From Alphaproteobacteria bacterium (GTDB lineage: Bacteria > Pseudomonadota > Alphaproteobacteria > Micavibrionales > Micavibrionaceae): a stretch of 64,000 nucleotides of DNA. The notes beneath the pieces are model-generated. The model did not search any database. It was not told the DNA's origin and worked only from the letters and a program-made list of their open reading frames with translations. The position numbers were made by a program, and so were the translations under genes. The stretch is taken from assembly GCA_002690045.1 (NCBI GenBank), contig NZDE01000005.1, positions 54,402 to 118,401 of the forward strand. Reading direction: 5' to 3'. Below are positions 5,175 through 56,429 of the stretch, one piece after another; position 1 is the stretch's first letter, and each line of letters begins with the position of its first letter.

Positions 5175-5978
5175 CTATAGCGCGTTTATAATTTCTTGCG
5201 TATGTGCGCTTAAAAGGGCAGGAGATAGCTTGCCCTCTTTGTATGAATCCTCGCAGAGTTTGATTATTTTTGACCCGATAATGACCCCATCGGCACCATT
5301 TTTTACCATATCCTGTGCATTCTGCGCTGTCGATATACCAAACCCCGCAATAGCCGGTAAAGCGAAATGGGCCTTAATTGTTTTGAATAGAGCCGCTAAA
5401 TTCTGATCATATTGATCTTGCATCCCTGTGATGCCCATTTTGGTCACTACATAAATAAAACCGCCTGCATACGGCGTAATCTTAGCGAAGCGCGATGCAT
5501 CAGACGTGGGCGCAACAATAAATACCATTTCTAGTCCCGCTTTTTGTGTGAGCGGGTATATATCTTCGGCATGTTCCGGCGGTAGGTCGGGGATGAGTAT
5601 GCCGTCAAGCCCAACGTTGGCGAGGGCTGTTAAGAATATGTCTGGTTTCTTCGCTAAAATAATGTTGTAGTAGGACATCAACGTTAGCGGGGTAGTGGGG
5701 GCGTATGAACGTATTTCTCTAATAAATGTAATGATCTGATCGACTTTGAAACCGTTATCAAGGGCGTGGTTGGCTGCGGCTTCAATGACAGGGCCATCAG
5801 CGACAGGGTCGCGAAAAGGAATGCCGATTTCAAGGCCGTCTGCGCCATTATCAATTAATGTCTTTGCTGCCGCAATTGACGCATCAAGGTCTGGATAGCC
5901 GATCAACACATAAGGCATATAAACAGCGTGCCCATTTTGAATTTTATCATGTATGTATTTATATCGTGTATTACTCAT
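5175..5978 (-). CDS. trpA: Tryptophan synthase alpha subunit
   Basis: 267 residues, the usual length. TrpA splits indole-3-glycerol phosphate into indole and glyceraldehyde 3-phosphate and channels indole to TrpB. The TIM-barrel signature [19 protein letters not shown] carries the catalytic Glu50 and Asp61. The phosphate-binding end GFGISTAQ and the [10 protein letters not shown] strand are also present. The start ATG overlaps the trpB stop by four bases (ATGA), which implies translational coupling. trpF is not adjacent, and the pair lies directly beside a plasmid-type replication module. Confidence 0.97.
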
Positions 5979-7174
5979 TCGCTATGTTCTTTCTTATACG
6001 CCATAATATGCTGAAGGTCTTTATCGCCGCGACCAGAGAGGTTGACGAGTATATGACTACCTTTATGCTCTGCGGCTGATTTCTTTGCCTGTGCAAGCGC
6101 GTGTGCGCTTTCTAGCGCGGGTAAGATGCCTTCGGCAGCAGAAAGGTCATAAAACGCCTCTACGGCCTCTGCATCAGTTATTGCGTAATATTGCGCGCGG
6201 CCTATATCACGCAAATAGGCATGTTCTGGGCCCACAAGAGGATAATCAAGTCCCGCAGATATGCTATGCGTTTCAAATATTTGTCCGTCTTCATCTTGCA
6301 GAGCAAGGCTGCTCATGCCGTGTAATACGGCGTGTGTGCCCTTAACCAGAACTGCGCCATGTTTATTGCTTTCTAGGCCTTCACCGCCAGGCTCTGCGCC
6401 AATTAATTGAACGTCTTTATCATCAATAAAGCTTTGGAACAGGCCAATTGCATTTGACCCGCCGCCGACGCAGGCGATAGCCATATCAGGCAATTTGCTC
6501 ATCATATCAAGGCATTGGGCGCGGGCTTCTATGCCAATAGGCTTGTGAAAATAACGCACAAGTGTAGGGAAGGGGTGCGGCCCTGCAGCTGTGCCTAATA
6601 GGTAATGCGTTGTCTCACAGCTCGCGATCCAGTCGCGCAATGCTTCGTTAATAGCGTCTTTAAGTGTCGCGCTGCCACTTTCAACGGCAATCACTTCCGC
6701 GCCAAGGATTTTCATGCGTTCAACATTCGGGGCTTGACGTGCGACGTCAACGGCGCCCATATAAACGGTGCAAGGGAGGTTCATTTTGGCGCAGGCCATA
6801 GCGGTCGCTACACCATGCTGACCCGCACCGGTTTCGGCTATAATGCGGGTTTTGCCCATTTTCTTTGCAAGCAGGGCTTGGCCAAGGGCGTTATTCGTCT
6901 TATGCGCGCCGCCATGCATTAAATCTTCGCGTTTTAGGTAAATATGCGCCCCATATTGCGCGGATAAATTCTCCGCATAATAAAGCGGGGTAGGGCGGCC
7001 GCCCCAATGATGCATAATGTATTGAAATTCTTTGTTAAATGTATCGTCATGTTCATATTTACGAAAGGCTTGACGTAATTCTTCCAATATTGGTATTAAG
7101 GCTTCCGGAGAATATTGCCCGCCATAACGGCCAAAAAAGCCGCGATCATCATTTATTTGTTCATGTGATGCCAC
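5975..7174 (-). CDS. trpB: Tryptophan synthase beta subunit
   Basis: 399 residues. TrpB is a PLP enzyme that condenses indole with serine to tryptophan in the alpha2beta2 complex. The PLP lysine is Lys92 in [14 protein letters not shown]. The glycine-rich phosphate loop [10 protein letters not shown] and the N-terminal [15 protein letters not shown] motif are intact. It is the first gene of a trpB-trpA operon with a 4-base overlap. Upstream bases 7175-7325 separate it from the divergent dus gene; no attenuator or leader peptide was recognised. Confidence 0.97.
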
Positions 7175-11580: not shown

Positions 11581-13566
11581 TTAAAATTCATATTTCGCGC
11601 GAAGGAAGATTTGGCTATCAACTTCTTCACCTGCTGCAGACTGCTCGTTTTCACCTAATACAGCTTGGCCGTTTAGTGACAATGTTAAGCCATCAAATTT
11701 AGAAGGTGAATACGCAATTTTGGCATCGACGATAACATCAGGGTCAATGCTACGTGTCTCGGAAGTAGATGCTGTAATATCAACGGCTTGTTTGAAGTCA
11801 GATTCATATGCTGCAAAAACGTCAAATGCCCATTCTTCAGTTGGTGAGTAACCTAAGTTTAATTTCACCATATGGTCAGAATGCTGTCTTTCAAAATTTG
11901 TGCCTGTTGTGCTAATCAAGTCATCTTCAATTTCTGAATATGAGTAGTTGACGCCCCAACGGATGCCGCCATCTGTCAAGCCTTCAAGACCAGCCTCGAA
12001 ACCATAAACTTCCGAATCTCCAACGTTATCGTAATATGAAAGCGTTGTTGAAATGGCACGTGTGCTTTGCATTTCTTCGATATACTGGTAGAACGCACCA
12101 AGTTTGAACTTACCGTTAATGCTACTTAACTGACGTTCATAGCCTAGCTGGTAGTCAAAAATACTTGAAACTTCAATAGTCGGGTCACCATATAAAGATG
12201 CGGCACCAGGTATAACTGTCGAAAGTTCAAATGTGCTTGGCAGATCGACACCTTTAGCAAACGTTAGGCGCAATGTGTCGATGTCTGTTGGCTTGTATAC
12301 CAAACCTAAGTTATAACCAAACTCATCATAGCTGTTTTGATATTGTTCTGGGTTAAATGGACTTGCTTGATAGCCAAGAGTACCAGGATCAAAATCAGTT
12401 TCCACATGGTCGTATCTCAACGCAATACTACTGGAAAGTTTGTCACTAATATTCCAGTACCATAAGCCGCTAAGCGAGCCAATGTTAAGGGTTTCTTCGC
12501 TCGCGGTACCAAGGCCGACAATAGTCATATCTGCCGTATTTGTACGGAACTCACTAGCTAGACGAACTGTATGGCTAGTGCCAATTTTGAACGTGTCGCT
12601 CAGCTGTAGAACTGTAACATCGTTTTCGAAGTTGAAAGTGCCTGCGGCACCTTTATATTCTGATTCAAAGGCGTTTCTGTACATTGTAAAATCAACAATG
12701 CCCCAATCGGTATCAGAGTTTAGGTTTGCGCGGACGGACTTATTATCAGTGTCTCGACCATATACAGTATCAAATACGTCTTTTTGATTTTCATCGACAA
12801 CACCGCTGCTTGCTTCAAAACGCATTTGTGTTTTGTCATTAAGCTGCAAAGCTGCATCCATATTGAAGCGACGAACATATACCTCATCGCGAAGAGATGT
12901 AATCGCGCTGTTCACATTGTTATCGTCTTCATCTATTTTAGTACTTGCGCCTGAAATACGTAGGCCGAATTTGTCTTCGTTCTGCCATGTGTAAACACCA
13001 GAGCCACGTGTGTAACTGTTAATGCCGGCGTCGCCTTCAACAAGATCAATGTCATCATATAATGGGTTAACGGTCACAATATTTACAACACCTGATGTAG
13101 CGTTAAAGCCAAATAATGCAGTGTTCGGGCCACGTACAATTTCAATTTGACGAATTTCGTTTAGTTCGACGGGAATCGCTGACCAGTTAACTAGGCCAAA
13201 GTAGTCTTCAAATACCTGACGACCATTCACGAGCACGAGTAGGCGCTCATTCATTGCAGAGTTGTAGCCACGAACACCTACTGAGTATTCAGTCGATGTA
13301 TTTTGACGAACAGATACGCCAGCATAATGACGTAGAATGTCAGGAATTGCACGGGCTGGATAACGTGCGATATCTTCTGCTGATATGATTGTCATATCAA
13401 GCGGTGCGTCTGATGCGCGCATTGGTGAGCCGTTTGCAGATGTTGTGACAGGCTCGCCAAACATTTCCTGCATAACGCCGTAATTCAAGCTTTGCGCTTG
13501 TGCTTGTGGTGCTGCGAACGCACCTAATGCACAAATAGCGGCTGCTGAAAATAAAAACTTTTTCAT
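11581..13566 (-). CDS. TonB-dependent outer-membrane receptor
   Basis: 661 residues. Signal peptide MKKFLFSAAAICALGAFAAP with cleavage near AQA. A plug domain follows (about 50-165: LDMTIISAEDIARYPARAIP, then VSVRQNTSTEYSVGVRGYN, GRQVFEDYFG and IEIVRGPNTALFGFNATSGV). The remainder is a beta-barrel ending in the aromatic C-terminal strand FLRAKYEF. It takes up a ligand using TonB energy; the ligand cannot be named. No clear TonB box was found. It follows a YfiR-like gene on the same strand and lies opposite a chemoreceptor and hybrid kinase. Related groupings suggest that receptor and YfiR feed a signalling pathway. The start has AGGAGAT six bases upstream. Confidence 0.92.
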   Translation of the reverse strand: MKKFLFSAAAICALGAFAAPQAQAQSLNYGVMQEMFGEPVTTSANGSPMRASDAPLDMTIISAEDIARYPARAIPDILRHYAGVSVRQNTSTEYSVGVRGYNSAMNERLLVLVNGRQVFEDYFGLVNWSAIPVELNEIRQIEIVRGPNTALFGFNATSGVVNIVTVNPLYDDIDLVEGDAGINSYTRGSGVYTWQNEDKFGLRISGASTKIDEDDNNVNSAITSLRDEVYVRRFNMDAALQLNDKTQMRFEASSGVVDENQKDVFDTVYGRDTDNKSVRANLNSDTDWGIVDFTMYRNAFESEYKGAAGTFNFENDVTVLQLSDTFKIGTSHTVRLASEFRTNTADMTIVGLGTASEETLNIGSLSGLWYWNISDKLSSSIALRYDHVETDFDPGTLGYQASPFNPEQYQNSYDEFGYNLGLVYKPTDIDTLRLTFAKGVDLPSTFELSTVIPGAASLYGDPTIEVSSIFDYQLGYERQLSSINGKFKLGAFYQYIEEMQSTRAISTTLSYYDNVGDSEVYGFEAGLEGLTDGGIRWGVNYSYSEIEDDLISTTGTNFERQHSDHMVKLNLGYSPTEEWAFDVFAAYESDFKQAVDITASTSETRSIDPDVIVDAKIAYSPSKFDGLTLSLNGQAVLGENEQSAAGEEVDSQIFLRAKYEF

Positions 13567-46572: not shown

Positions 46573-46826
46573 AAGAAATAGTCCTTATTCATTTGTTTTT
46601 AAAAAGATATATAAAAATACTTTAAATTAACATACACTAATAAACCATCATATCATGTTATAAGTTAATGTTCTATAAATATAATATATATGACTTATTC
46701 GGATGAAGTAAAAATTCTCAGCAGAACGTGTCCTGTATTTTTTACGCGTTTTGTCTTAAATGCACTTGCAAATGTTACAACATAACACTACAACAGACTC
46801 ATTATTTTAAAAAATGGAGATGTGTT
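46573..46826. other. Divergent intergenic region with operator-like site
   Basis: 254 AT-rich bases between the secreted sensor gene and the CooC-like operon. It holds the Zur-box-like repeat described separately (46773-46787) and the ribosome binding site TGGAGATG before 46827. No gene is seen. Confidence 0.5.
46773..46787. promoter_or_regulatory. Zur-box-like inverted repeat upstream of the CooC-like operon
   Basis: TGTTACAACATAACA. The arms TGTTA and TAACA have the same 5-base spacing as the known Zur consensus TGTTATANTATAACA and differ from it at only two inner positions. It lies 40 bases before the operon's first start codon, where repressor binding would block transcription. A near-perfect Zur box stands before the transporter operon at 56415-56429. 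Zur control of the CooC-like operon is inferred from these matches. Confidence 0.5.
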
Positions 46827-47954
46827 ATGCCTGTAGCTGTTGTTGGTGGCGCTGGCTCTGACGGTAAAACTACTGTTCTTGAGCTTGTTTCTAAATATTT
46901 AGTTGTTAATGGTGATGAACCATTAATTATTGATGCAAACCCTGACCAAAACTTAGCGAGCTTCTTAGGGCTTCCGGCTGGTGATGAAGCAAAGCTGCCA
47001 GAGATTTGTGAGCATTGGGAAGATATTCGCGACCATCTAGAAGGACAAAACCCAGATTATCCGAATAAAGATTTTGTTGTCGATACGTCGCCTTTGACAA
47101 AAAATTCAGCGCGATGGAAGGCGGGGGACGTTCAAGACCATATCATCAACACATATACAGCCGCGCATGAAGGTATGCGTTTAATGCGCACTGGTACATA
47201 TGAAGCGAAAGATATTGGTGCAGGCTGTCTGCATGATAAAATAGGCACGCTGACATTTCTGCTGAATCATATGGATGACGGTATGCATGGCGAAGATCGC
47301 GTAACATTTGTTGATAACGCACATGGGCGTGATGCATTCGGTACGCCGCTTTATGCGCAAGGTGACTTGATTATTGTTGTCGCGCGCCCCGAAAAAAAGT
47401 CGATTGATATAATGCTCGATTATTTAAAAATGGCGGATCAGGTAGAACAAGATATTGGCCATAAGATTAATGTTGCCGTGATTGGCAACCGTTTTAGTAC
47501 TGATGCAGATATTTTTGAAGCGCAAGAAAAAATATTTAAAGAGCTCGCTGGAGATCGCTATATTGCGGCGCTTCAGAATGATGAAGCGTTAGAGCGCGGC
47601 CTTAATGCCGAATTAGCTGGTTTGGTACGTACAGGTTTTAATATAGCGGCAAATGATGGGCGCGCTATTCTTGATAATATAGAGTTGTCAAACACAGGCC
47701 CAAGACTAGATCAGTTAAGCGCACATAACATTGCGGCGTTAGAAGATATTGCAAATGCAGTGAAAAATGCTGATCGTGTACCTGAACGTCGCGTTGAATG
47801 GAATGCGCTGTGTCTTGGGCGCGCAGAGTATCTTGATAAATTGGTTGATCCGTCCGTTCGTAAGCAGAAATCTGACTTCGTGCCTGATCAACATAAGCAT
47901 GGCCCATCTTGTGGTCACCATCATCATAAACACGGCCCAGGCTGTAAACATTAA
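46827..47954 (+). CDS. CooC/MinD-like ATPase with His/Cys-rich C-terminal tail
   Basis: 375 residues from ATG 46827, 8-12 bases after GGAGA; longer in-frame extensions look non-coding. SIMIBI-class P-loop at residues 7-16 (GGAGSDGKTT). The second position of the 'GKGGxGKT' motif, normally the signature lysine that reaches across the dimer, is alanine here. The strand LIIDANPDQNLASFLGLP matches the CooC DxDxxxxLxxxLG phrase. A C-x-H motif (Cys134, His136; IGAGCLHDKIG) stands where CooC has its Cys-x-Cys metal site. The tail from about 355 (HGPSCGHHHHKHGPGCKH) is a likely Ni/Zn/Co-binding arm. It is 27 bases from its sister ATPase. Metal insertion is inferred; no target enzyme is adjacent. Confidence 0.8.
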   Translation: MPVAVVGGAGSDGKTTVLELVSKYLVVNGDEPLIIDANPDQNLASFLGLPAGDEAKLPEICEHWEDIRDHLEGQNPDYPNKDFVVDTSPLTKNSARWKAGDVQDHIINTYTAAHEGMRLMRTGTYEAKDIGAGCLHDKIGTLTFLLNHMDDGMHGEDRVTFVDNAHGRDAFGTPLYAQGDLIIVVARPEKKSIDIMLDYLKMADQVEQDIGHKINVAVIGNRFSTDADIFEAQEKIFKELAGDRYIAALQNDEALERGLNAELAGLVRTGFNIAANDGRAILDNIELSNTGPRLDQLSAHNIAALEDIANAVKNADRVPERRVEWNALCLGRAEYLDKLVDPSVRKQKSDFVPDQHKHGPSCGHHHHKHGPGCKH

Positions 47955-47981
47955 TATTATAATTAGGGAAGGATTTAGAGT

Positions 47982-48962
47982 ATGCGTATGGCATTTTGCG
48001 GTAAAGGCGGAAGCGGTAAATCAACATTATCATCATTAGTTGCGCGTTACATGGCGTATAAGAACATGCCTGTTTTGATCATTGATGGCGATATCAATCA
48101 GCATCTAGGTCACGCCCTCGGATTTGAAGAATCTGCATTAACTGCTCAGCCTAAAATGGGTGTGGATTCTAAATTATTGATGAACACAATTGTTGGTAAA
48201 AATCCGCGCGTTAAGTCAGCAGACTTTCTTACAGAATCTACACCTGCTGGTCGGGGCTCTGGTTTTGTTTACTTTGATCAGCCATCACCAGTTTACGATC
48301 ATTATCAAATGGAAAAAGACGGCGTTCGATTTATGGCTGTCGGCAGCCATGAGGAAGAAGAAATTGGCACGACATGCTTCCATAAGTTTACGGGTATTTT
48401 TGGCATGTTCCTTAACCACTTTATTGACCGTGACGATCAGGTTTTAATTGGTGATATGTGTGCAGGTGCGGATCCATTTGCATCATCTGGTTTGGCATCA
48501 CGCTTTGATGGCATTTTCCTAGTGGTTGAGCCAACCCTTAAATCAACGGGCGTTTACGACCAATGCATCAAATATGCAGAACCTTACGGCACTAAGATTT
48601 TTGTGATTGGTAACAAGGTTGAAGACGAGGCTGACGAAGCCTTTATCAAAGAACGTATTGGCGATGACCTTATTGCGTGTTTTGGCAAATCTAAATACGT
48701 AAGAAATTTAGAAAAAGGCATCTTCGCACCAATCTCTGAACTTGAAGACGAAAACAAGGCTGTGCTTGATACAATTCTTGAAAAAGCATCTATGCTTAAA
48801 CGTGATTGGGCACAATATCAGGCTATTGGCATGAAGTTCCATAAGCAGGCCGCAGAAGGTTGGGCAAATGCCATGTATGGCGTTGATATGATGGATCAAT
48901 TCGACCCTGAATTTTCTTATGAAGATGTAATGGTGGATACAAAAATGGACAAGGCCGCTTAA
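47982..48962 (+). CDS. CooC/MinD-like ATPase, second copy
   Basis: 326 residues. Deviant Walker A FCGKGGSGKSTL keeps the signature lysine (Lys8) that the upstream copy lacks. The switch-like phrase LIIDGDINQHLGHALGF, a Cys-x-His motif (Cys132, His134; EIGTTCFHKFTG) parallel to that of the upstream copy, and DMCAGADPFASSGL complete the pattern. The base-recognition strand LVVEPTLKSTGVYDQC follows. Together the two products could act as a heterodimer with one complete and one altered ATP site. The next gene, a cysteine desulfurase, starts three bases after the stop. Class assignment is solid; the metal or cofactor target is unknown. Confidence 0.82.
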   Translation: MRMAFCGKGGSGKSTLSSLVARYMAYKNMPVLIIDGDINQHLGHALGFEESALTAQPKMGVDSKLLMNTIVGKNPRVKSADFLTESTPAGRGSGFVYFDQPSPVYDHYQMEKDGVRFMAVGSHEEEEIGTTCFHKFTGIFGMFLNHFIDRDDQVLIGDMCAGADPFASSGLASRFDGIFLVVEPTLKSTGVYDQCIKYAEPYGTKIFVIGNKVEDEADEAFIKERIGDDLIACFGKSKYVRNLEKGIFAPISELEDENKAVLDTILEKASMLKRDWAQYQAIGMKFHKQAAEGWANAMYGVDMMDQFDPEFSYEDVMVDTKMDKAA

Positions 48963-48965
48963 TTA

Positions 48966-50153
48966 ATGTCAAACAGCCCCACCATATATATGGATTATGC
49001 CGCAACCACGCCGATGGATAAGCGTGTGGTTGATGCAATGTCGCCATGGTGGGGTGATTTTGTTGGTAATGCGTCTTCACTGCAAAATGCGCATGGTCAA
49101 ATGGCTAAACGTGCTATAGATAAAGCGCAAAATCAGATAGCTGATGCTATTGGCGCAGATAAAGATGAAATCATCTTCACCTCTGGTGCGACGGAAGCCA
49201 ATAATATGGTGCTGCTTGGTTTAGCTGAACACCTAAAGTCAGAAGGTAGAACGCATATCGTTACATCTAAAACAGAACATGCGTCTGTTTTAATGCCTGC
49301 TATGCAGTTAATGCGCACAGGCTTTGATGTTGCTTTCTCAACATTACTCCCGTGTGGGATGGCAGATGGCAAAGATGTTTTAGCTGCGCTAAACGAAAAT
49401 ACAGGTCTTGTATCCATTCAAGCTGTAAATAATGAAACAGGCGTTATTAACCCGTTAGATGAAGTTAAGGCAGGTCTTATGGGTACTGACATCTTGTTTC
49501 ATTGTGATGCTGCACAGGCATTAGGCAAAGCGCCGTTTAATGTAAAAGACACGGGCGTTGATTTTGCAACGCTTTCAGCGCACAAAGTCTATGGCCCGCA
49601 AGGTATAGGCGCGCTTTATGTTCGCCGTGAAGTACAGTCATATTTGAAACCGCTTGTTTATGGCGGAGGGCAGCAAGGCGGTTTACGGTCGGGTACATTG
49701 CCGACAGCTTTAATTGTTGGTTTTGGCGAAGCTTGTGCGATAGCAGTGGCAGAACAAAGCGCCGATAAACAACGATTTGAAAACTATCACCAAATAATCC
49801 GTAGCGCGCTCGATAAGGCACAAGTTACATATAAAATTAATGGTCACGACCATGGCAAAGATAGCACACTTTGGCGCGTCCCGAACATAATGAATATTTG
49901 CTTTGAAGGTGTTGAAAACGAGTGGCTTTTAGAAGCTATCCAAGGTTTTGCCTTCTCAACAGGCTCGGCCTGTTCGGCAAACGGGAATAAGACTTCACAT
50001 GTATTGGAAGCAATTGGTTGCACAGCTACAGAAGTTAACAGTTCCATACGTTTATCCTTTGGGCGTATGACTACCGAACAAGAAATACAGCGTGTAGCGA
50101 CCGAACTTGCACAGGTCGTATCAAGCTTACAAGAACTAACACAAGCAGCATAA
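48966..50153 (+). CDS. Cysteine desulfurase (NifS/IscS family)
   Basis: 395 residues. PLP enzyme that takes sulfur from cysteine as a persulfide. Seen: N-terminal YMDYAATTPMDKRVVDAM, TSGATEANNMVLLG, TSKTEHASVL, the PLP lysine in TLSAHKVYGPQGIGALYVRR, and the catalytic cysteine loop FSTGSACSANGNKTSHVLEA. The loop length and GSACS wording favour the IscS/NifS group I. It is 3 bases after the second ATPase gene and 10 before the decarboxylase-like gene, so it acts within this operon. No IscU, NifU or SUF scaffold gene is nearby, which is unusual for a dedicated Fe-S desulfurase. Confidence 0.92.
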   Translation: MSNSPTIYMDYAATTPMDKRVVDAMSPWWGDFVGNASSLQNAHGQMAKRAIDKAQNQIADAIGADKDEIIFTSGATEANNMVLLGLAEHLKSEGRTHIVTSKTEHASVLMPAMQLMRTGFDVAFSTLLPCGMADGKDVLAALNENTGLVSIQAVNNETGVINPLDEVKAGLMGTDILFHCDAAQALGKAPFNVKDTGVDFATLSAHKVYGPQGIGALYVRREVQSYLKPLVYGGGQQGGLRSGTLPTALIVGFGEACAIAVAEQSADKQRFENYHQIIRSALDKAQVTYKINGHDHGKDSTLWRVPNIMNICFEGVENEWLLEAIQGFAFSTGSACSANGNKTSHVLEAIGCTATEVNSSIRLSFGRMTTEQEIQRVATELAQVVSSLQELTQAA

Positions 50154-50163
50154 GGAGTATGTC

Positions 50164-51675
50164 ATGTCAAATGCAGTTCAGCAGATTATAGAACAAGACA
50201 ATACAACAAAACTGTCATTGCCACCGGTCATTAACCCAATTACGGAAGCATTCATTGATCGTAATCCAGATATGATTTTTGATTTGGTTGATGCTTTTGG
50301 TTCGCCTTTAAACCTTATCTTTCCGCAGATGATTGACCGTAATATTGCGGCATTTAAAGAGGTTTATAAGAAAAACAACTTATCAGGCCAAATATACTTC
50401 ACCAGTAAGCCTAATAAATCCGTGTCGATTATGCGTCAGGCATCGACCAATGACGTTAATATTGATGTATCATCAGAAAAGGCGCTCCACACCGTCCTCT
50501 CATGCGGATTCAGACCGGAGCGCATCGAGTGTACAGGACCCAAAAATTTAGATTATTTATCCTTAGCCGTACAGCAAGGCGTCACCATTAATGCAGATAA
50601 TTTAACAGAGCTACAACAAGCAATCGAGATTAAGAAAAGCCTTGGCCTACAAGAAAAATTACGTGTTTTTGTGCGCCTGTCAGGCTTTAACTCTCCGCGC
50701 GTTAAATTTACGTCACAGGACGGTACGTTCGGCGTTCATGTTAATAAAGCGCCTGAGATTTTTGCTTTTCTTAAGGCGAATATAGAAGACCTTGATTTCC
50801 AAGGCTTCGCTTATTACTGGAGTAGCGCAAGCGAAGAACAGCGTATTGTTGCGCTAGAAAACGCACTTGAACTGACAATTGAAGCAATAGAACAAGGCCT
50901 AAATCCTAAGGGTCTGAATATTGGCGGAGGCTTCCACATTCAATATGCGAAAGACCGCAAAGAATGGATGCGCTATGTGGATCAAGTAAAGGAATCTTTA
51001 CTTGCGCTTGGCGGTAGTGAACTGACTTGGAATAATAACGGTCTGGGCTTCCGTAATGAAGGCGGCTTGATTAAAGGCGCAGCGAATTATGTGGATCACC
51101 ATATGCCAAAAACAAGCGCCGAAGACTTTGACCATATGATCAACTTGCCGCTCCCCGCGTTCGATGGCATGAGCGCCGCGCAAATCCTAAGCGATAGCTT
51201 GTTAGAATTATATATAGAGCCGGGCAGGGCATTACTTGACCAGTTAGGTGTCACGATTGGCCGCGTAAATTTCACGAAAAAATCTGTCAATGGCGAAACC
51301 ATGGTTGCATTGGACATGAACCGATCAAACCTGCATTCAACACACCAGAAACTACTAACAGACCCAATTATATTTCATAAGGATCCGTCAAAATGTAAGC
51401 CATGCCCTGAAGGCGTTTATTATTACGGTAATCTATGCGTGTCATATGACATTATCACATATAATAAAACCTTCCCTGATTTGCTGCCTGAGCCGGGTGA
51501 TCTGGTGATGTTCATAAATACCGCGCCTTATATTATGGACTTTATTGAATCAAACACACTGCACCAAGAAACAGGCAAAAAAATAACGATTATTGAACAG
51601 GAAGATCGTTTCCGCTGGTTCACGGATGAGAAGTATAAACCTGTTATTCAAAAATACTTAAATAAAGGAGCGTAA
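50164..51675 (+). CDS. Fold-type III PLP decarboxylase-like enzyme (Y4yA/SbnH/LysA-type)
   Basis: 503 residues, longer than diaminopimelate decarboxylase (about 420). The PLP lysine is in IYFTSKPNKS, the phosphate loop in KGLNIGGGFHIQYAK and the catalytic cysteine near the C-terminus in CPEGVYYYGNLCVSYDII. Together they define the Orn/DAP decarboxylase fold. Additional sections (about 285-320 and 400-430, including CKPCPEG) are outside the core family. The next gene encodes a cysteine-synthase-like enzyme. From memory, a similar pair occurs in rhizobia (Y4yA with Y4xP) and in staphyloferrin B synthesis (SbnA with SbnH). The substrate is unknown; a cysteine- or diaminopropionate-derived acid is a guess. 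Confidence 0.75.
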   Translation: MSNAVQQIIEQDNTTKLSLPPVINPITEAFIDRNPDMIFDLVDAFGSPLNLIFPQMIDRNIAAFKEVYKKNNLSGQIYFTSKPNKSVSIMRQASTNDVNIDVSSEKALHTVLSCGFRPERIECTGPKNLDYLSLAVQQGVTINADNLTELQQAIEIKKSLGLQEKLRVFVRLSGFNSPRVKFTSQDGTFGVHVNKAPEIFAFLKANIEDLDFQGFAYYWSSASEEQRIVALENALELTIEAIEQGLNPKGLNIGGGFHIQYAKDRKEWMRYVDQVKESLLALGGSELTWNNNGLGFRNEGGLIKGAANYVDHHMPKTSAEDFDHMINLPLPAFDGMSAAQILSDSLLELYIEPGRALLDQLGVTIGRVNFTKKSVNGETMVALDMNRSNLHSTHQKLLTDPIIFHKDPSKCKPCPEGVYYYGNLCVSYDIITYNKTFPDLLPEPGDLVMFINTAPYIMDFIESNTLHQETGKKITIIEQEDRFRWFTDEKYKPVIQKYLNKGA

Positions 51676-51677
51676 CT

Positions 51678-52985
51678 ATGATCGTAGAACGCATGACTGA
51701 TTTAATTGGTGACACACCACTTTTGAAAATCCCTGCTGAAGTTACGGGGCTAAAGAATATTGACCTATACGGTAAACTTGAACTTATGAATCCTTTCGGC
51801 TCAGTGAAAGACCGTATTGCATGGCATATGATAAAAGATGATATCGAAGATATGGCTGCAAAAGGGCAAACTATTTTTGAAAACTCTAGTGGCAATACAG
51901 CCAAAGCCATCTGCGCCATCGCGGCAAGTTACGGCGTACCGTTCAAATTGGTGAGTGCCATTGCCAAGGTCAAAGAAACCAAAGATCTGTTGCGCATGTT
52001 AGGGGCAGATATTGAAGAATTTGCCGCAGCAAGCGATTGTTTTGATCCAAACGACCCAAACGACCCGCAATATTTGATTGAAAAAGCTGTCCGTGAAACA
52101 GGCGGCGACATCTACTTTACATCTCAATTTACGAATGAGAAGAACCCAGAAATACACGAGCAAACAACGGCGCAAGAAGTCTTAGCTGATATTGGCCGCG
52201 TTGATTATTTTGTTAGTGGTTTAGGTACGACAGGCTCAACATTAGGTATGACCCGTGCATTTCGTAAGAATAACCCTGATTGTACCTGTATTGGCCTGAC
52301 ATCCACAAAAGGGGAGTTTGTACCAGGCATCCGTTCACTTGACCAAATGTGGGAATCTGGCCTGTACCAGCGTGACAATTATGCAGATGTGGTGACTGTA
52401 AGCGAGAAAGGCGCATTAGAAGCAATGTTTACCCTGAACCGCCAGCTTGGCTTGCTTTGCGGCCCATCGGCAGGGGCGAATTATCAGGGCGCTATTGATT
52501 ATCTGAAGACAATTGATGAGACACTAACTGAACGCAAGAACGCTGTCTTTATCGTTTGTGATCGTGTTGAATGGTACATGTCTTATATATCAGAACGTTA
52601 CCCTGAATTGTTCGGTGAAAAACCAAAACCAGACTCACTGTTTAATTTTGACTTTGATAGTGCTGATAACGCGCCATTATTACAGGCAGAGGACTTACAA
52701 AACTGGCAACAAGAACATAACCCAGTTGTTATTGATGTGCGCTCATCAATTGCGTATCGTATTAATCATATTGATGGCGCGATCAACATGCCGATTGAGA
52801 TGTTTGAGAAACTGATAGATAGTAACTCACCATTTCCGAAGGAGCGCCCAATATTGCTTGTTTGTGCTGTAGGTGAAAAAACAACGCGCCATGCGGCTTA
52901 TTTGAACGCCCGTGGCTACGATGCGCGTTCACTAGACGGCGGCATGATGGCGCTTAAAGCGCTGAATATGCAGAAAGCGGCATGA
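51678..52985 (+). CDS. Cysteine synthase-like enzyme fused to a rhodanese domain
   Basis: 435 residues. Residues 1-320 are a fold-II PLP enzyme of the CysK/SbnA group: Lys of FGSVKDRIAWHMI forms the Schiff base, FENSSGNTAKAICAIAASYG binds the carboxylate, GLGTTGSTLGMTRAFRKN holds the phosphate and GPSAGANYQGAI closes the site. Residues 335-435 are a rhodanese module (VVIDVRSSIAYRINHIDGAINMP) with a persulfide cysteine in LLVCAVGEKTTRHA. Its loop starts like the catalytic CxxxxR loop but lacks a final Arg. The fusion could make a cysteine-like product and carry its sulfur. It is 2 bases after the decarboxylase-like gene. The usual CysK N-terminus is shortened. Confidence 0.85.
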   Translation: MIVERMTDLIGDTPLLKIPAEVTGLKNIDLYGKLELMNPFGSVKDRIAWHMIKDDIEDMAAKGQTIFENSSGNTAKAICAIAASYGVPFKLVSAIAKVKETKDLLRMLGADIEEFAAASDCFDPNDPNDPQYLIEKAVRETGGDIYFTSQFTNEKNPEIHEQTTAQEVLADIGRVDYFVSGLGTTGSTLGMTRAFRKNNPDCTCIGLTSTKGEFVPGIRSLDQMWESGLYQRDNYADVVTVSEKGALEAMFTLNRQLGLLCGPSAGANYQGAIDYLKTIDETLTERKNAVFIVCDRVEWYMSYISERYPELFGEKPKPDSLFNFDFDSADNAPLLQAEDLQNWQQEHNPVVIDVRSSIAYRINHIDGAINMPIEMFEKLIDSNSPFPKERPILLVCAVGEKTTRHAAYLNARGYDARSLDGGMMALKALNMQKAA

Positions 52986-53136: not shown

Positions 53137-53811
53137 TTGGTCGCGCTAAAACAACTTGCCGAAACGAGCGGCGGGAATATCTCGGATGAAACGCTTTTTA
53201 GGCTCATCGCAGAAGATCTGGAAACTCAAGGTTACAGTATACGGCATGGCGCGCTTCCTGATGATATAGCAAATGCTTTATTTTTATATCAGCAAGATTT
53301 AAACGCGAACAAATATGCGAAAGCGGGCATTGGGCGCGGCAATGACTTCCTAAAAAACAAGTTTGTGCGTACAGACGAGATATGCTGGATTACAGGAGAG
53401 TCTGAAGCTGGGCGCATGTGGGTTGATTGGTCGTCAAAACTACAGAGATTTTTGAACCAAAAACTGTTCTTGGGACTGTTCTCATTTGAAAGTCATTTCG
53501 CACATTATCCGCCAGGGGCTTACTATAAAAGACATTATGATGCGTTTCGTGGTGAGACCAATAGAGTTCTATCCGTTGTGACCTATTTAAACCCGTCATG
53601 GGGTCAGAATGATGGAGGGGAACTCGTTATATATCAAGATGAGCACGATCATGAGGGCGTCAAGGTTGCGCCTGCGTTCGGCACAATTGTTGTGTTTCTG
53701 AGCGAAGAGTTCCCACATGAGGTTTTACCTGCAACAAGAGACCGATATTCCGTAGCAGGCTGGTTCCGCGTTAATACGTCAATCAATAACAATATTGATC
53801 CACCACGCTAG
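53137..53811 (+). CDS. 2-oxoglutarate/Fe(II)-dependent prolyl-4-hydroxylase-like dioxygenase
   Basis: 224 residues from a TTG start at 53137; no ATG or GTG gives the full domain and no strong ribosome binding site is visible. The 2OG oxygenase core has the iron triad: His and Asp in YYKRHYDAFRGE, the distal His in EEFPHEVLPATRDRYSV, and the 2OG-binding Arg four to ten residues later (DRYSVAGWFR). The phrase LSVVTYLNPSWGQNDGGELVIY is typical of bacterial prolyl hydroxylases (SM-20-like). It follows the CooC-like operon by 151 bases on the same strand, but its own upstream sequence makes membership uncertain. Confidence 0.82.
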   Translation: MVALKQLAETSGGNISDETLFRLIAEDLETQGYSIRHGALPDDIANALFLYQQDLNANKYAKAGIGRGNDFLKNKFVRTDEICWITGESEAGRMWVDWSSKLQRFLNQKLFLGLFSFESHFAHYPPGAYYKRHYDAFRGETNRVLSVVTYLNPSWGQNDGGELVIYQDEHDHEGVKVAPAFGTIVVFLSEEFPHEVLPATRDRYSVAGWFRVNTSINNNIDPPR

Positions 53812-53824
53812 GCACATATCTATT

Positions 53825-54382
53825 TTATTTAACGATAGTGGCGCCTCTTAAGCGATAGAACACATTATATTCATCGTCCTTATAGACGAGCTCTAATTTA
53901 CCGCTGAGATTCACAGGGTCATACTGAAACTCTATTGCGCCTTCAGTATGCACTTCTATGATAAGGTTTGGTTTTACGTGGTAGTGAAAAGGACAGCTTA
54001 AAGGGAAGGGGCCAAGCAAGAATAACGCTTTGCCGTCTTGTTCACCAATTGGAAACAAAAAGCCTTGTATAATAATATCTTGTCCATCTAAGGCTTTTAG
54101 CTCATCAGTGAATTCTGGGCGCACGCCGCTCCATTCAATGCCGTCTGCATCTTCATAGCTATAGGGTATTTGCGCGGTACGTCCAAATACTGCCCATTCT
54201 GTTCCGCCTTCTGGAATAGTGACAAACTCATCAATGCTCTCGATAATTTCTTCTTGTGTATATTGTGCCGTGCTTTCAATTGGCGTCGTTTCATATCCGA
54301 ATGCTTTGGTTATGAATGTCCCTGTGTCTGACATTTTGGTGTGTGAAAGAGGGTGGCTTGGGTCTTTAGATTTAGGCGCCAT
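53825..54382 (-). CDS. DUF3299-like lipid/metal-uptake accessory protein
   Basis: 185 residues from ATG 54382. In-frame upstream codons continue to an ATC at 54457, eight bases after GGAG; that reading gives a complete signal peptide (KKTLVNIFKTSCVFAVLLII), so translation may start there (see findings). The core follows the DUF3299 pattern: DGQDIIIQGFLFPIGEQDG, then FLLGPFPLSCPFHYHVKPN and VHTEGAIEF. Such proteins occur with Zur-regulated MacB-like transporters. It is the last gene of the operon with the permease at 54471 and the ATPase at 55757, which supports a role in zinc uptake. The precise task is unknown. Confidence 0.7.
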   Translation of the reverse strand: MAPKSKDPSHPLSHTKMSDTGTFITKAFGYETTPIESTAQYTQEEIIESIDEFVTIPEGGTEWAVFGRTAQIPYSYEDADGIEWSGVRPEFTDELKALDGQDIIIQGFLFPIGEQDGKALFLLGPFPLSCPFHYHVKPNLIIEVHTEGAIEFQYDPVNLSGKLELVYKDDEYNVFYRLRGATIVK

Positions 54383-54470: not shown

Positions 54471-55760
54471 TTATGGTCGTGTGGATAGCTGCTTTATAAT
54501 ATCAATATTGGCGGCACGTATCGCGGGGACAAGTGCTGCCATGACACCAGCAATAAAAATGATTACGATAAAGGTCGCGGTCATATAAGTCATAGTAAAT
54601 TGTGCGCCGCTTGCTTGTAAAGGTGCAATCGCATGGCATAGTGCGTTAAAGCCGAATATGCCAGCAAGCCCCCCGACACAAAGCCCTGCGGTTGTTATGA
54701 CAGCGCCTTCAGCCAAGATAATCTTGATAATTCTTGTTTTTGTGTAACCAATAGCCCTTAACACGGCTAGATCACCTGACCTGTTTTCTAAACTGCCTGC
54801 TAGGCCGCTAAATATACTTAATGCGGCAATGACAATAACGAAGAAAGATAATGTCGTGAAGCTTTCAACGCCAATGCCTAGAGCCGCAGAAAGGCGCGCG
54901 GTTTCTAGTGCAGGGTTAGCCGCCAGCAGCGCTGAATTTTTATTAATTGTCCGCGGTAAATTAATATTCGCGATCGGGGTCTTTGTTTTGATTAATATAG
55001 CCGTAATTTCGGATGGGCTATGTATAGATTCGGTATGGTTGTGGTTATGCCCCGCATGCTCATCTTGGTGTCCATGTTCGTCATGATGGCCATGATGAGC
55101 ATCATGATCATGGGCGGCATGCTCGTCTTCGGAACTGTGGTCGAGATGGATATCGTCTTGACCATGAACATCCAAAACGGAATTAACAGATGTGAGTATT
55201 AAACGATCCAGAACCGTGCCTGATGGTTTAAGTTTGCCAACTACAGTATAGGGATGATTGTCATGTTGATGGTTATGGCCTGATAAACCATGTGCGCCAA
55301 TAAAGTGATTATCAACATTCAGGGGGACCGCTGCACCTACGACAACTTCATATTTATCCTGCCACGCGCGCCCAGTCATAATCTCAGCCTTGTAATGCTG
55401 TATATAGCTGTGCGACGTACCGACAATTCGATGGCCTTTCCAGCTGTCGCCCAAAGCAAGCGGTATAGCGTGTTTAACGTGCGGATGTTTCATCCATTTC
55501 TGCGCTTCTCTAAACGGAATATTTCCTGTTGGTACATCGATATGATAAATAGACGATAAGACAAGTTGGAGTGGGCTGCCTTTCGCACCAATAACGATGT
55601 CTATGTTTTTTCCGTCTGTTGTTAGCCGTGAATGAATATGATGCCCGAATTGGGTGATAATAATCACAAGCGTCACGCCTAGTGCCGTCAATAGTACGGA
55701 TAAGAAGACATTCAGCCAGCGGTTCTTTAATGAACTTGTAATAAGTTGAAAATCATTCAT
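54471..55760 (-). CDS. MacB/FtsX-like ABC transporter permease with His-rich loop
   Basis: 429 residues. TM1 about 16-38, a large periplasmic domain (about 40-290), and three further membrane segments (about 300-325, 350-375, 390-415), the FtsX/MacB/LolC arrangement. The periplasmic part holds a histidine run at residues 199-247 (for example HAAHDHDAHHGHHDEHGH) beside GHNHQHDNHP at 161-170, a likely zinc-collecting arm. Its start overlaps the stop of the ATPase gene by four bases. Zur-regulated operons of this type (for example ZrgABCDE of Vibrio) import zinc, so zinc uptake is the favoured role. Confidence 0.88.
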   Translation of the reverse strand: MNDFQLITSSLKNRWLNVFLSVLLTALGVTLVIIITQFGHHIHSRLTTDGKNIDIVIGAKGSPLQLVLSSIYHIDVPTGNIPFREAQKWMKHPHVKHAIPLALGDSWKGHRIVGTSHSYIQHYKAEIMTGRAWQDKYEVVVGAAVPLNVDNHFIGAHGLSGHNHQHDNHPYTVVGKLKPSGTVLDRLILTSVNSVLDVHGQDDIHLDHSSEDEHAAHDHDAHHGHHDEHGHQDEHAGHNHNHTESIHSPSEITAILIKTKTPIANINLPRTINKNSALLAANPALETARLSAALGIGVESFTTLSFFVIVIAALSIFSGLAGSLENRSGDLAVLRAIGYTKTRIIKIILAEGAVITTAGLCVGGLAGIFGFNALCHAIAPLQASGAQFTMTYMTATFIVIIFIAGVMAALVPAIRAANIDIIKQLSTRP

Positions 55761-56380
55761 CGGCCGACCTCCAAAACTGTATCAAAGCGTTCTTTTATAC
55801 GCGCGTCATGTGTGGCAGCAATGATAGATGCGCCTGTCACCTTGGCTTGTTCAAAGATTAGGTTCATAACATGATCGGCATTTTTGTCGTCTAAGGCAGA
55901 TGTAGGCTCATCCGCAAAAATGACGGATGGTTTATTCGCAAGCGCACGCGCGATTGCTACCCTTTGCGCCTGTCCATGGCTAAGGTCTTTGGCTTTTTGG
56001 TGCGAAAATTCTGATAAGTCTAAAGCATTAAGCAAAAAGTCGATGTGGCCCCTGTCTTTGTTGTGCTGCGCTAAGCTAATGTTTTGCAGCGCAGTTAAAT
56101 GCCCAATGAGATTAAGTTTTTGGAAGATAAAACCGAAATTACTGGCTCTTAAATGGTCTAACTGTTTGGCGGATAACTGCGTATAGCTTTGACCATTGAA
56201 GATAATATCACCGGCGGTTATGGGCATTAAGCCTGAAATCAAGTTTAACAATGTCGATTTACCGCAGCCTGACGGTCCAATAAGAAGCAGGTGCTTATGA
56301 TTATCGATCTCCAGTAAGCTAGGGATCAATTCAGCTTGGGTAAAGTTGTCATGCATCAAATTTTGTATTTGGAAAAGCAT
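55757..56380 (-). CDS. LolD/MacB-like ABC transporter ATP-binding protein
   Basis: 207 residues. Walker A LLLIGPSGCGKSTLLN (residues 35-42), Q-loop in FGFIFQKLNLIGHL, signature LSHGQAQRVAIARAL, Walker B VIFADEPTSALDDKN and H-loop AATHDARI are intact. It drives the neighbouring FtsX-type permease. It is first in its operon, with a Zur box 35 bases before the start codon. The permease and DUF3299-like genes follow with overlap or short spacing. Confidence 0.9.
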   Translation of the reverse strand: MLFQIQNLMHDNFTQAELIPSLLEIDNHKHLLLIGPSGCGKSTLLNLISGLMPITAGDIIFNGQSYTQLSAKQLDHLRASNFGFIFQKLNLIGHLTALQNISLAQHNKDRGHIDFLLNALDLSEFSHQKAKDLSHGQAQRVAIARALANKPSVIFADEPTSALDDKNADHVMNLIFEQAKVTGASIIAATHDARIKERFDTVLEVGR

Positions 56381-56414: not shown

Positions 56415-56429
56415 TGTTATAATATAACA
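56415..56429. promoter_or_regulatory. Zur box before the zinc-uptake ABC operon
   Basis: TGTTATAATATAACA, identical to the E. coli Zur consensus TGTTATANTATAACA. It is centred about 42 bases upstream of the ATPase start and between divergent transcription units. A zinc-repressed operon with a His-rich permease fits. The match is seen directly; regulation by Zur is inferred. Confidence 0.8.

Follow-up and report, generated by a model that had tools for sequence, protein, structure and literature searches.

What brings two CooC-like ATPases into one operon with a cysteine desulfurase, a decarboxylase and a cysteine synthase fused to a rhodanese domain? We addressed this question for five genes, A to E, of a bacterium related to the predator Micavibrio, which lie within the 64-kb stretch of DNA analysed here (the window). 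On balance, the evidence favours a Zur-controlled operon that likely makes a small zinc chelator and whose two CooC-like ATPases would handle zinc.

The coordinates bear out the arrangement described in a sequence-only reading of this DNA, with five plus-strand genes separated by 27, 3, 10 and 2 bases (Table 1). The ribosome-binding site and operator-like repeat that it placed before the first gene correspond to a GGAG-type site close 5' of the ATG of gene A and to a sequence, TGTTACAACATAACA, that contains Zur-box half-sites; its five protein assignments likewise agree with the family matches. The start of gene A was placed at 46827 from homologues, and a GTG at 46728 was rejected. A 2OG-Fe(II) gene at 53137–53811 was considered as a sixth member and set aside, being unmatched in all 16 other stretches examined. 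A promoter scan gave 17 sites against 16.7 in shuffled sequences, with no excess, and terminator-like sites added nothing to the operon picture.

Table 1. Features of the operon and of the neighbouring ABC operon, in window coordinates
Feature	Position	Strand	Description
Zur-box-like operator TGTTACAACATAACA	46773..46787		39 bases 5' of gene A ATG
Gene A	46827..47954	+	SIMIBI ATPase, CooC-like predicted fold
Gene B	47982..48962	+	CooC-like ATPase
Gene C	48966..50153	+	IscS/DndA-type cysteine desulfurase
Gene D	50164..51675	+	fold-III PLP decarboxylase, Y4yA family
Gene E	51678..52985	+	cysteine-synthase-like (PALP) + rhodanese fusion
DUF3299 protein (ZrgE/PA4066-like)	53825..54382	-	last gene of ABC operon
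FtsX-family permease with His-rich loop	54471..55760	-	gene order same in relatives
ABC ATPase	55757..56380	-	DevA/LolD/MacB-type exporter models closest
Second Zur-box-like site	56415..56429		34 bases 5' of ABC ATPase

The exact motif TGTTAN5TAACA occurs twice in the window, against 0.10 sites expected from shuffles, a count of two also being reached in 1 of 100 shuffles. With one mismatch allowed, the window holds 2 box sites against 2.85 expected, which is the level of chance, so that only exact boxes carry weight there. The count of the strict motif over the whole genome is stronger evidence: TGTTAYANNRTAACA occurs at five places in 2.88 Mb and its reversed control at none. These places include the region 5' of the operon with the genome's zur-like gene and a COG0523/DUF1826 pair. 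The zur-like gene (L026:6940–7428), itself behind a box, matches 7dh7 at 3.5e-29 (entry title 'Transcriptional regulator fur family'; Xanthomonas Zur) and 4mtd, 'Zinc uptake regulation protein', at 1.3e-23. The only other exact box in the window precedes the ABC ATPase gene. Read on the complementary strand it is TGTTATATTATAACA, which matches without a difference the core of a Zur site published for zrg of Vibrio parahaemolyticus. The box also lies 169 bases 5' of a divergent zinc-type alcohol dehydrogenase gene and could serve that gene as well. Fifteen further genomes that carry gene B hold 18 strict sites between them: 13 at this cluster, two at COG0523 genes and three without explanation. 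Five of these genomes have no strict site, and the reversed control matches in two (G002, three times; G043, once). One-mismatch boxes in three relatives (L033, L038 and L051) add weak support. These patterns suggest a strong link between the operon and zinc, which is very probably its metal, given the Zur-type boxes, the clustered zur-like and COG0523 genes, and the adjoining Zrg-like ABC genes.

The permease of the ABC operon scores 49.2 bits with FtsX (cut-off 25.5) and, just above the cut-off of 27, 27.2 bits with MacB_PCD, and the exporter models closest to the ATPase all fall below their cut-offs. Next to the ABC operon, no gene for ZrgA (DUF2796) was recognised. The role of the Zrg/PA4063-4066 type is disputed, being given as zinc uptake or as metallophore export.

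Gene B matches CbiA above the Pfam cut-off, and gene A, at 24.4 bits, lies slightly under the cut-off of 25.4. A CooC-like SIMIBI ATPase fold is assigned to A by its predicted structure, for which CooC1 is the top PDB match, and to B by sequence, CooC1 being its best relative among solved structures, with the metal-site loop aligned. Residues Cys134-x-His136 occur in A, together with a His/Cys-rich C-terminal tail, and Cys132-x-His134 in B, where CooC has Cys-x-Cys. The Cys-x-His motif is found in 27 of 27 aligned A proteins and 12 of 12 aligned B proteins, a histidine thus replacing the second cysteine of CooC in all 39. We infer that these ATPases handle zinc.

The product of C has an Aminotran_5 match, with DndA/IscS best among the NCBIfam models, below those models' cut-offs, and represents an extra desulfurase copy. 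The decarboxylase D matches Orn_Arg_deC_N and conserves Lys82 and Cys425 in all ten aligned sequences. It shares 27–31% identity over 85–92% of its length with Y4yA-annotated proteins (seven among the matches listed), and a relative 48% identical to it carries that name. The papers found on Y4yA concern rhizobial symbiosis or secretion and effector ligases. In metallophore-type clusters, members of the family have SbnA-like enzymes as partners.

In gene E, PALP and rhodanese domains are joined, and the PALP fold, the PLP-type lysine (Lys44) and a C-terminal rhodanese with its cysteine (Cys396) are all present, both residues being invariant in 50 of 50 aligned sequences. E is not an SbnA equivalog, since it scores 140.4 bits with the NCBIfam SbnA model, far under the cut-off of 349.95. 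A Foldseek search with its predicted model is headed by aspergillomarasmine A synthetase (8h4h and 8h4q), the sole entries to span model residues 1–434 among the 50 VIA rows listed. The Z values of these entries (36.1 and 35.9) are similar to those of cystathionine synthases (35.2 and 35.1), so that only coverage separates the two, and the full-length rmsd is 21 Å. Ligases of the aspergillomarasmine A synthetase/SbnA type form a C–N bond from O-phosphoserine, an activity that E may share.

Across genomes (loci L001–L005 were taken as repeats of other loci and counted once), the core of the cluster comprises B, D and E, with A, the desulfurase, a methyltransferase-like gene, the ABC genes and a zur-like gene as variable members. 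One candidate for the methyltransferase-like gene, L029:7282–8019 (+), was discarded on a poor alignment (14–21%) and a tblastn match that puts the gene on the opposite strand. The sequence-only reading had staked its five-gene unit on gene order being shared with other genomes. The unbroken A-B-C-D-E order was seen nowhere but in its own genome. L037 and L038, however, retain B-C-D-E, with A a few genes 5', and C-B-D-E occurs in L030, L031 and L036; the objection of no conservation therefore fails for the core. Six of 16 loci have the ABC genes within reach. Eight of the 16, three of them on contigs shorter than 7 kb, showed no desulfurase, which suggests that sulfur may be dispensable; among relatives, two different types of desulfurase fill this slot. 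B stands alone, without D and E, in L050, as does A in L035, and Streptomyces BHT-5-2 has a D-E-desulfurase set with B absent from the 25 kb examined and from the plasmid record; the ATPases and the enzymes may thus have separate jobs. A Nonomuraea relative of B (40%) has no recognised partner within 12 kb, and a weak B match in G584 was examined in the short locus L061 only.

Such separation is what one would expect if A and B served cytoplasmic zinc allocation with no secreted chelator, supplying client proteins while C, D and E made a thiol or diamine that buffers zinc inside the cell, or modified protein or RNA. We regard this as unlikely, though it has several points in its favour: the solitary B and A (L050 and L035) have a FUR-family gene or Zur-type box beside them, the same regulon contains COG0523, some members of which have been proposed as zinc chaperones inside the cell, and no TonB-dependent receptor with a strict box occurs in the host genome, so that no way back into the cell is seen for a chelator once secreted. 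Against it are the ABC, permease and DUF3299 genes that lie directly 3' of E in L032, L034, L037 and L038 and 3' of the enzyme genes in L040, and the D/E-type relatives that share a siderophore-type cluster with a gene for an exporter.

Less probable still is a zinc-sparing supply of sulfur, in which C and E would replace or boost cysteine or persulfide under zinc shortage and the ATPases would be chaperones of the same regulon. Cysteine made by such an E would be consumed by C, decarboxylase D would be left without a reason, the genome already carries a further cysteine-synthase-like gene along with two additional ones of desulfurase type, and cysteine synthases are, to our knowledge, not zinc enzymes. 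The idea draws on the cysteine-synthase-like character of E with its invariant rhodanese cysteine, on C being a desulfurase, and on the zinc-independent paralogues of Zur regulons described in PMC2770081. The kinship of both ATPases to CooC1 would suit insertion of nickel or of a metallo-sulfur cofactor, which we consider very improbable. The earlier remark that no CO dehydrogenase client adjoins the operon extends to the whole genome (98.85% complete), in which the Prismane/CODH family, PF03063, has 0 matches; the control search was positive in 5 of 14 genomes. This absence and the Cys-x-His motif led us to reject a nickel/CO dehydrogenase role. No client gene for the metallo-sulfur option was seen, and the Zur-type sites are not a link to nickel or CO. 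Of the first proposal, then, one functional unit concerned with a metal is supported, other genomes keeping it in part, and a metal-chelating small molecule from serine- or cysteine-type precursors stands as the most likely product, but a CooC-type nickel/CO dehydrogenase role is not supported.

The operon likely makes a small zinc-binding molecule and perhaps exports it. To judge from the sites, the zur-like gene and their conservation, Zur would occupy the 46773 and 56415 boxes when zinc is plentiful and keep both operons silent, and zinc starvation is predicted to switch the A-E operon on. E would add a nucleophile to the beta carbon of an activated serine, such as O-phosphoserine, as in SbnA or aspergillomarasmine A synthetase, and D would then take off a carboxyl group to leave a diamine- or aminopolycarboxylate-type ligand, two steps suggested by family and pairing. 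C may load persulfide onto Cys396 of the E rhodanese, bringing sulfur into the product or a precursor. The MacB/Zrg-type ABC proteins might export the ligand or else move zinc across the inner membrane. A and B would bind zinc through Cys-x-His, and A also through its tail, and pass it on with ATP, much as has been proposed for COG0523 GTPases. We more tentatively propose, as a possibility, a new zinc-acquisition system under Zur that combines paired CooC-lineage, ATP-driven Cys-x-His zinc chaperones with a new, sulfur-bearing bacterial relative of aspergillomarasmine. A Y4yA decarboxylase and a cysteine-synthase/rhodanese enzyme supplied with persulfide would make this compound, and a MacB/Zrg-type pump would export it.

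Zinc-starvation operons with unknown genes are one of the main places where new zinc chaperones and zincophores are found, and aspergillomarasmine-like chelators disarm metallo-beta-lactamases. If true, the proposal would offer a new bacterial route to scarce zinc, a non-nickel job for CooC-lineage ATPases, a family of aspergillomarasmine-like zinc chelators from bacteria, which would be of interest against metallo-beta-lactamases, and a function for the disputed Zrg/PA4063-4066-type ABC system. Literature searches did not find CooC-type ATPases, a persulfide route and an aspergillomarasmine-synthetase-like enzyme together, nor metallophore biosynthesis with desulfurase and rhodanese, rhizobactin with opine dehydrogenase, or anything for 8H4Q. 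A search combining Zur, zinc starvation, cysteine synthase and rhodanese gave Acinetobacter infection genes only, and one combining zincophore, EDDS and Zur general papers only. The M. aeruginosavorus genome paper mentions zinc once, for resistance genes, and PMC2770081 uses CooC as an outgroup.

Compared with known systems, A and B resemble CooC1 (3kje) in fold and P-loop, and B also in the aligned metal-site loop, but differ in having Cys-x-His rather than Cys-x-Cys, the His/Cys tail of A, a Zur-type site and a genome without a CO dehydrogenase match. Like the COG0523 zinc GTPase chaperones, they are metal-linked P-loop NTPases behind the same type of box; unlike these, they match CbiA/MinD-type models and not CobW, neither the N nor the C domain of COG0523/CobW being recognised. 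The ABC operon shares with ZrgABCDE/PA4063-PA4066 an ABC ATPase, an FtsX/MacB-type permease, a DUF3299 protein and a Zur-type box, but in several relatives its genes continue the ATPase/PLP operon. Relative to SbnA/Y4xP-Y4yA and to rhizobactin- or EDDS-type building, the rhodanese is fused and a desulfurase added here, and opine dehydrogenase and IucA/IucC genes are absent from the operon. Aspergillomarasmine A synthetase, a fungal enzyme whose product is a fungal zinc chelator, has the same two-domain PALP and rhodanese layout as E, and one of its crystals is with O-phosphoserine; the two proteins share 22–23% identity and differ in domain arrangement, and we know of no Zur control, ATPases, D or desulfurase associated with the fungal enzyme.

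Gene list and sequence agree with the sequence-only reading on the five genes of the operon, their order, strand and gaps, and Pfam and NCBIfam back its family calls: two CooC-like ATPases (A and B), a desulfurase (C), a fold-III decarboxylase-like enzyme (D) and a PALP-rhodanese protein (E). Comparison with homologues places the start of gene A at ATG 46827 rather than at the GTG of the ORF list. The 2OG-Fe(II) oxygenase gene that follows E has no match in the relatives' clusters read.

The operator repeat 5' of gene A is TGTTACAACATAACA. The exact pattern TGTTAN5TAACA occurs at two places in the 64 kb, before gene A and at the second box, against 0.10 expected from shuffles; with one mismatch allowed there are still two sites, against 2.85 expected. 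The second box also lies 169 bases ahead of a divergent zinc-type alcohol dehydrogenase gene, and its reverse complement reproduces exactly the core sequence of the published Zur site of V. parahaemolyticus zrgABCDE.

Coordinates of features in the window and, where a locus is named, in other contigs or genomes
Feature	Location	Strand	Description
Operon A-E	46827-52985	+	
Second box, TGTTATAATATAACA	56415		34 bases before the ABC operon
ABC operon		-	ABC ATPase; FtsX-family permease with MacB core domain and His-rich loop; DUF3299 protein
2OG-Fe(II) oxygenase gene	53137-53811	+	151 bases downstream of E
TonB-dependent receptor gene	about 11581-13566	-	no strict Zur-type box
Boxed small ORFs, own genome (contig C13)	L028:5356-5463 and 5622-6316		35 aa very Cys-rich ORF; 60 aa Cys-containing ORF; His-rich 166 aa protein
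Separate gene A (genome G068)	L035:7476-9345		own exact box; dienelactone-hydrolase-like gene directly 3'
Cys/His-containing upstream family	L038:10692-11450; L029:4769-6187; L030:11280-12320; L036:7849-9000		MCxxH start, CxMC motif
D, E and SufS-type desulfurase genes, Streptomyces sp. BHT-5-2	L063:11917-16108		consecutive

The whole of the organism's own genome (2.88 Mb in 23 contigs) has five sites that fit the stricter pattern TGTTAYANNRTAACA and none that fits the same pattern reversed as a control. Besides the two sites in the window, one lies between a COG0523 CobW gene and a DUF1826 gene, genes placed jointly in Zur-regulated clusters in PMC2770081. Another precedes two genes, one of them small and the other of the FUR family; the protein of this FUR-family gene gives hits to 7dh7 (3.5e-29) and to 4mtd, 'Zinc uptake regulation protein' (1.3e-23). 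The third adjoins the small ORFs on contig C13, which may form a small unit of metallothionein-like or zinc-transport type. The operon is very probably under Zur control, and we infer that zinc is the metal of the system.

A search with B gave matches in 12 of 143 relatives, in 5 of 385 genomes sampled from the class and in 2 of 398 sampled from the phylum, the own genome being counted in each. The cluster was read in 16 genomes (own, 11 relatives and four of the class), counts over which are not independent because G024 and G053 are closely related (B 95% alike). D is in the cluster in 15/16 and E in 14/16, one contig ending inside D; in L050, B stands without D or E within 19 kb. Only the own genome has an uninterrupted A-B-C-D-E. 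One to three other genes separate A from B-C-D-E in L037 and L038, and the order is C-B-D-E in L030, L031 and L036 and B-A-D-E in L039 and L040. Gene A belongs to the locus in six of the 16, and a seventh genome carries it at another place (L035), separate from C-B-D-E. By eye, at least 15 of 48 A proteins have a contig equal in stated length to that of a D or E protein among the 120 listed for each, at least eight of them with both; such equality merely hints at a shared contig.

Of these 16 loci, 11 have the exact pattern at the cluster and three (L033, L038, L051) only a one-mismatch version; L039 and L048 have neither there. The strict pattern gave 18 distinct sites across the 15 relatives, 13 at this cluster, two at COG0523 genes and three unexplained, and was absent from five of these genomes; its reversed control matched three times in G002 and once in G043. 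A FUR-family gene is in the locus in eight of 16 (Pfam-confirmed in L030, L032, L036, L037, L048 and L050; by BLAST in L031 and L038), and the ABC, permease and DUF3299 set is within reach in six. Upstream of the cluster in several relatives stands a Cys/His-containing family, in some fused to a His-rich membrane part; the members scanned match no Pfam model above its cut-off. It may be a further zinc component of this regulon.

Members of the A family are rare, with 48 proteins among the 7,989 candidates that were scored out of 5.8 billion. B matches the nickel-insertion ATPase CooC1 at 4e-22 by profile and A at 1.3e-4, and CooC1 is the first PDB match of the predicted model of A (mean pLDDT 85). 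Cys-x-Cys is the metal site of CooC. CooC1 has Cys-Tyr-Cys, whereas the B profile has Cys-Tyr-His at the same alignment position. Both residues of Cys-x-His are kept in all 27 aligned A proteins (of 48 found) and in all 12 aligned B proteins, an alignment that left out four class-search proteins and a weak match. In every aligned A protein the final 22 residues form a tail with between 2 and 11 His and one or two Cys. The kept Cys-x-His and, in A, this tail suggest that A and B would bind zinc, which they may also transfer.

In the window and in L030, L031, L036, L037 and L038, C is IscS/DndA-like; in L039, L040 and a Streptomyces record a SufS-type desulfurase takes its place (L031 and L038 typed by BLAST only, L039 and L040 via these genes as read in L003 and L005). 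Two distinct desulfurase types in one slot argue that persulfide is important where present. A methyltransferase-like gene on the opposite strand, between B and D, replaces the desulfurase in L029, L032, L033 and L034, and L040 has both. The own genome holds two further desulfurase-like genes and one further cysteine-synthase-like gene, which makes C and E additional copies. The D-E-desulfurase module exists beyond the Micavibrio group: the Streptomyces row, with no B in the 25 kb read around it, could belong to a natural product cluster. Among the matches listed, relatives of D and E extend to records of Bdellovibrionales or Pseudobdellovibrionaceae and of Melainabacteria/Obscuribacterales; other predators occur in these groups.

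A chelator-making role for the operon seems rather probable; the product would be a small chelator, perhaps containing sulfur, exported by the ABC proteins. No ZnuB-family match was found in the own genome (the control search was positive in 13 of 14 genomes), so another zinc route would be important. It speaks against a secreted zincophore that this genome has two TonB receptors scoring above the Pfam cut-off, one of them in the window, and that no strict box stands at either. As for the ABC proteins, published accounts treat Zrg as zinc uptake (PMC9817125) and argue that PA4063-4066 exports a metallophore (PMC11481552). Genes of this type lie directly 3' of the predicted ligand-making genes in five loci (L032, L034, L037, L038 and L040), which fits export without proving it.

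No account of CooC-lineage Cys-x-His ATPases that belong to a Zur-type regulon and are joined to an aspergillomarasmine-synthetase-like enzyme was found in the literature searched. Zur-controlled chelator operons, like zinc GTPases, are themselves known kinds of system.
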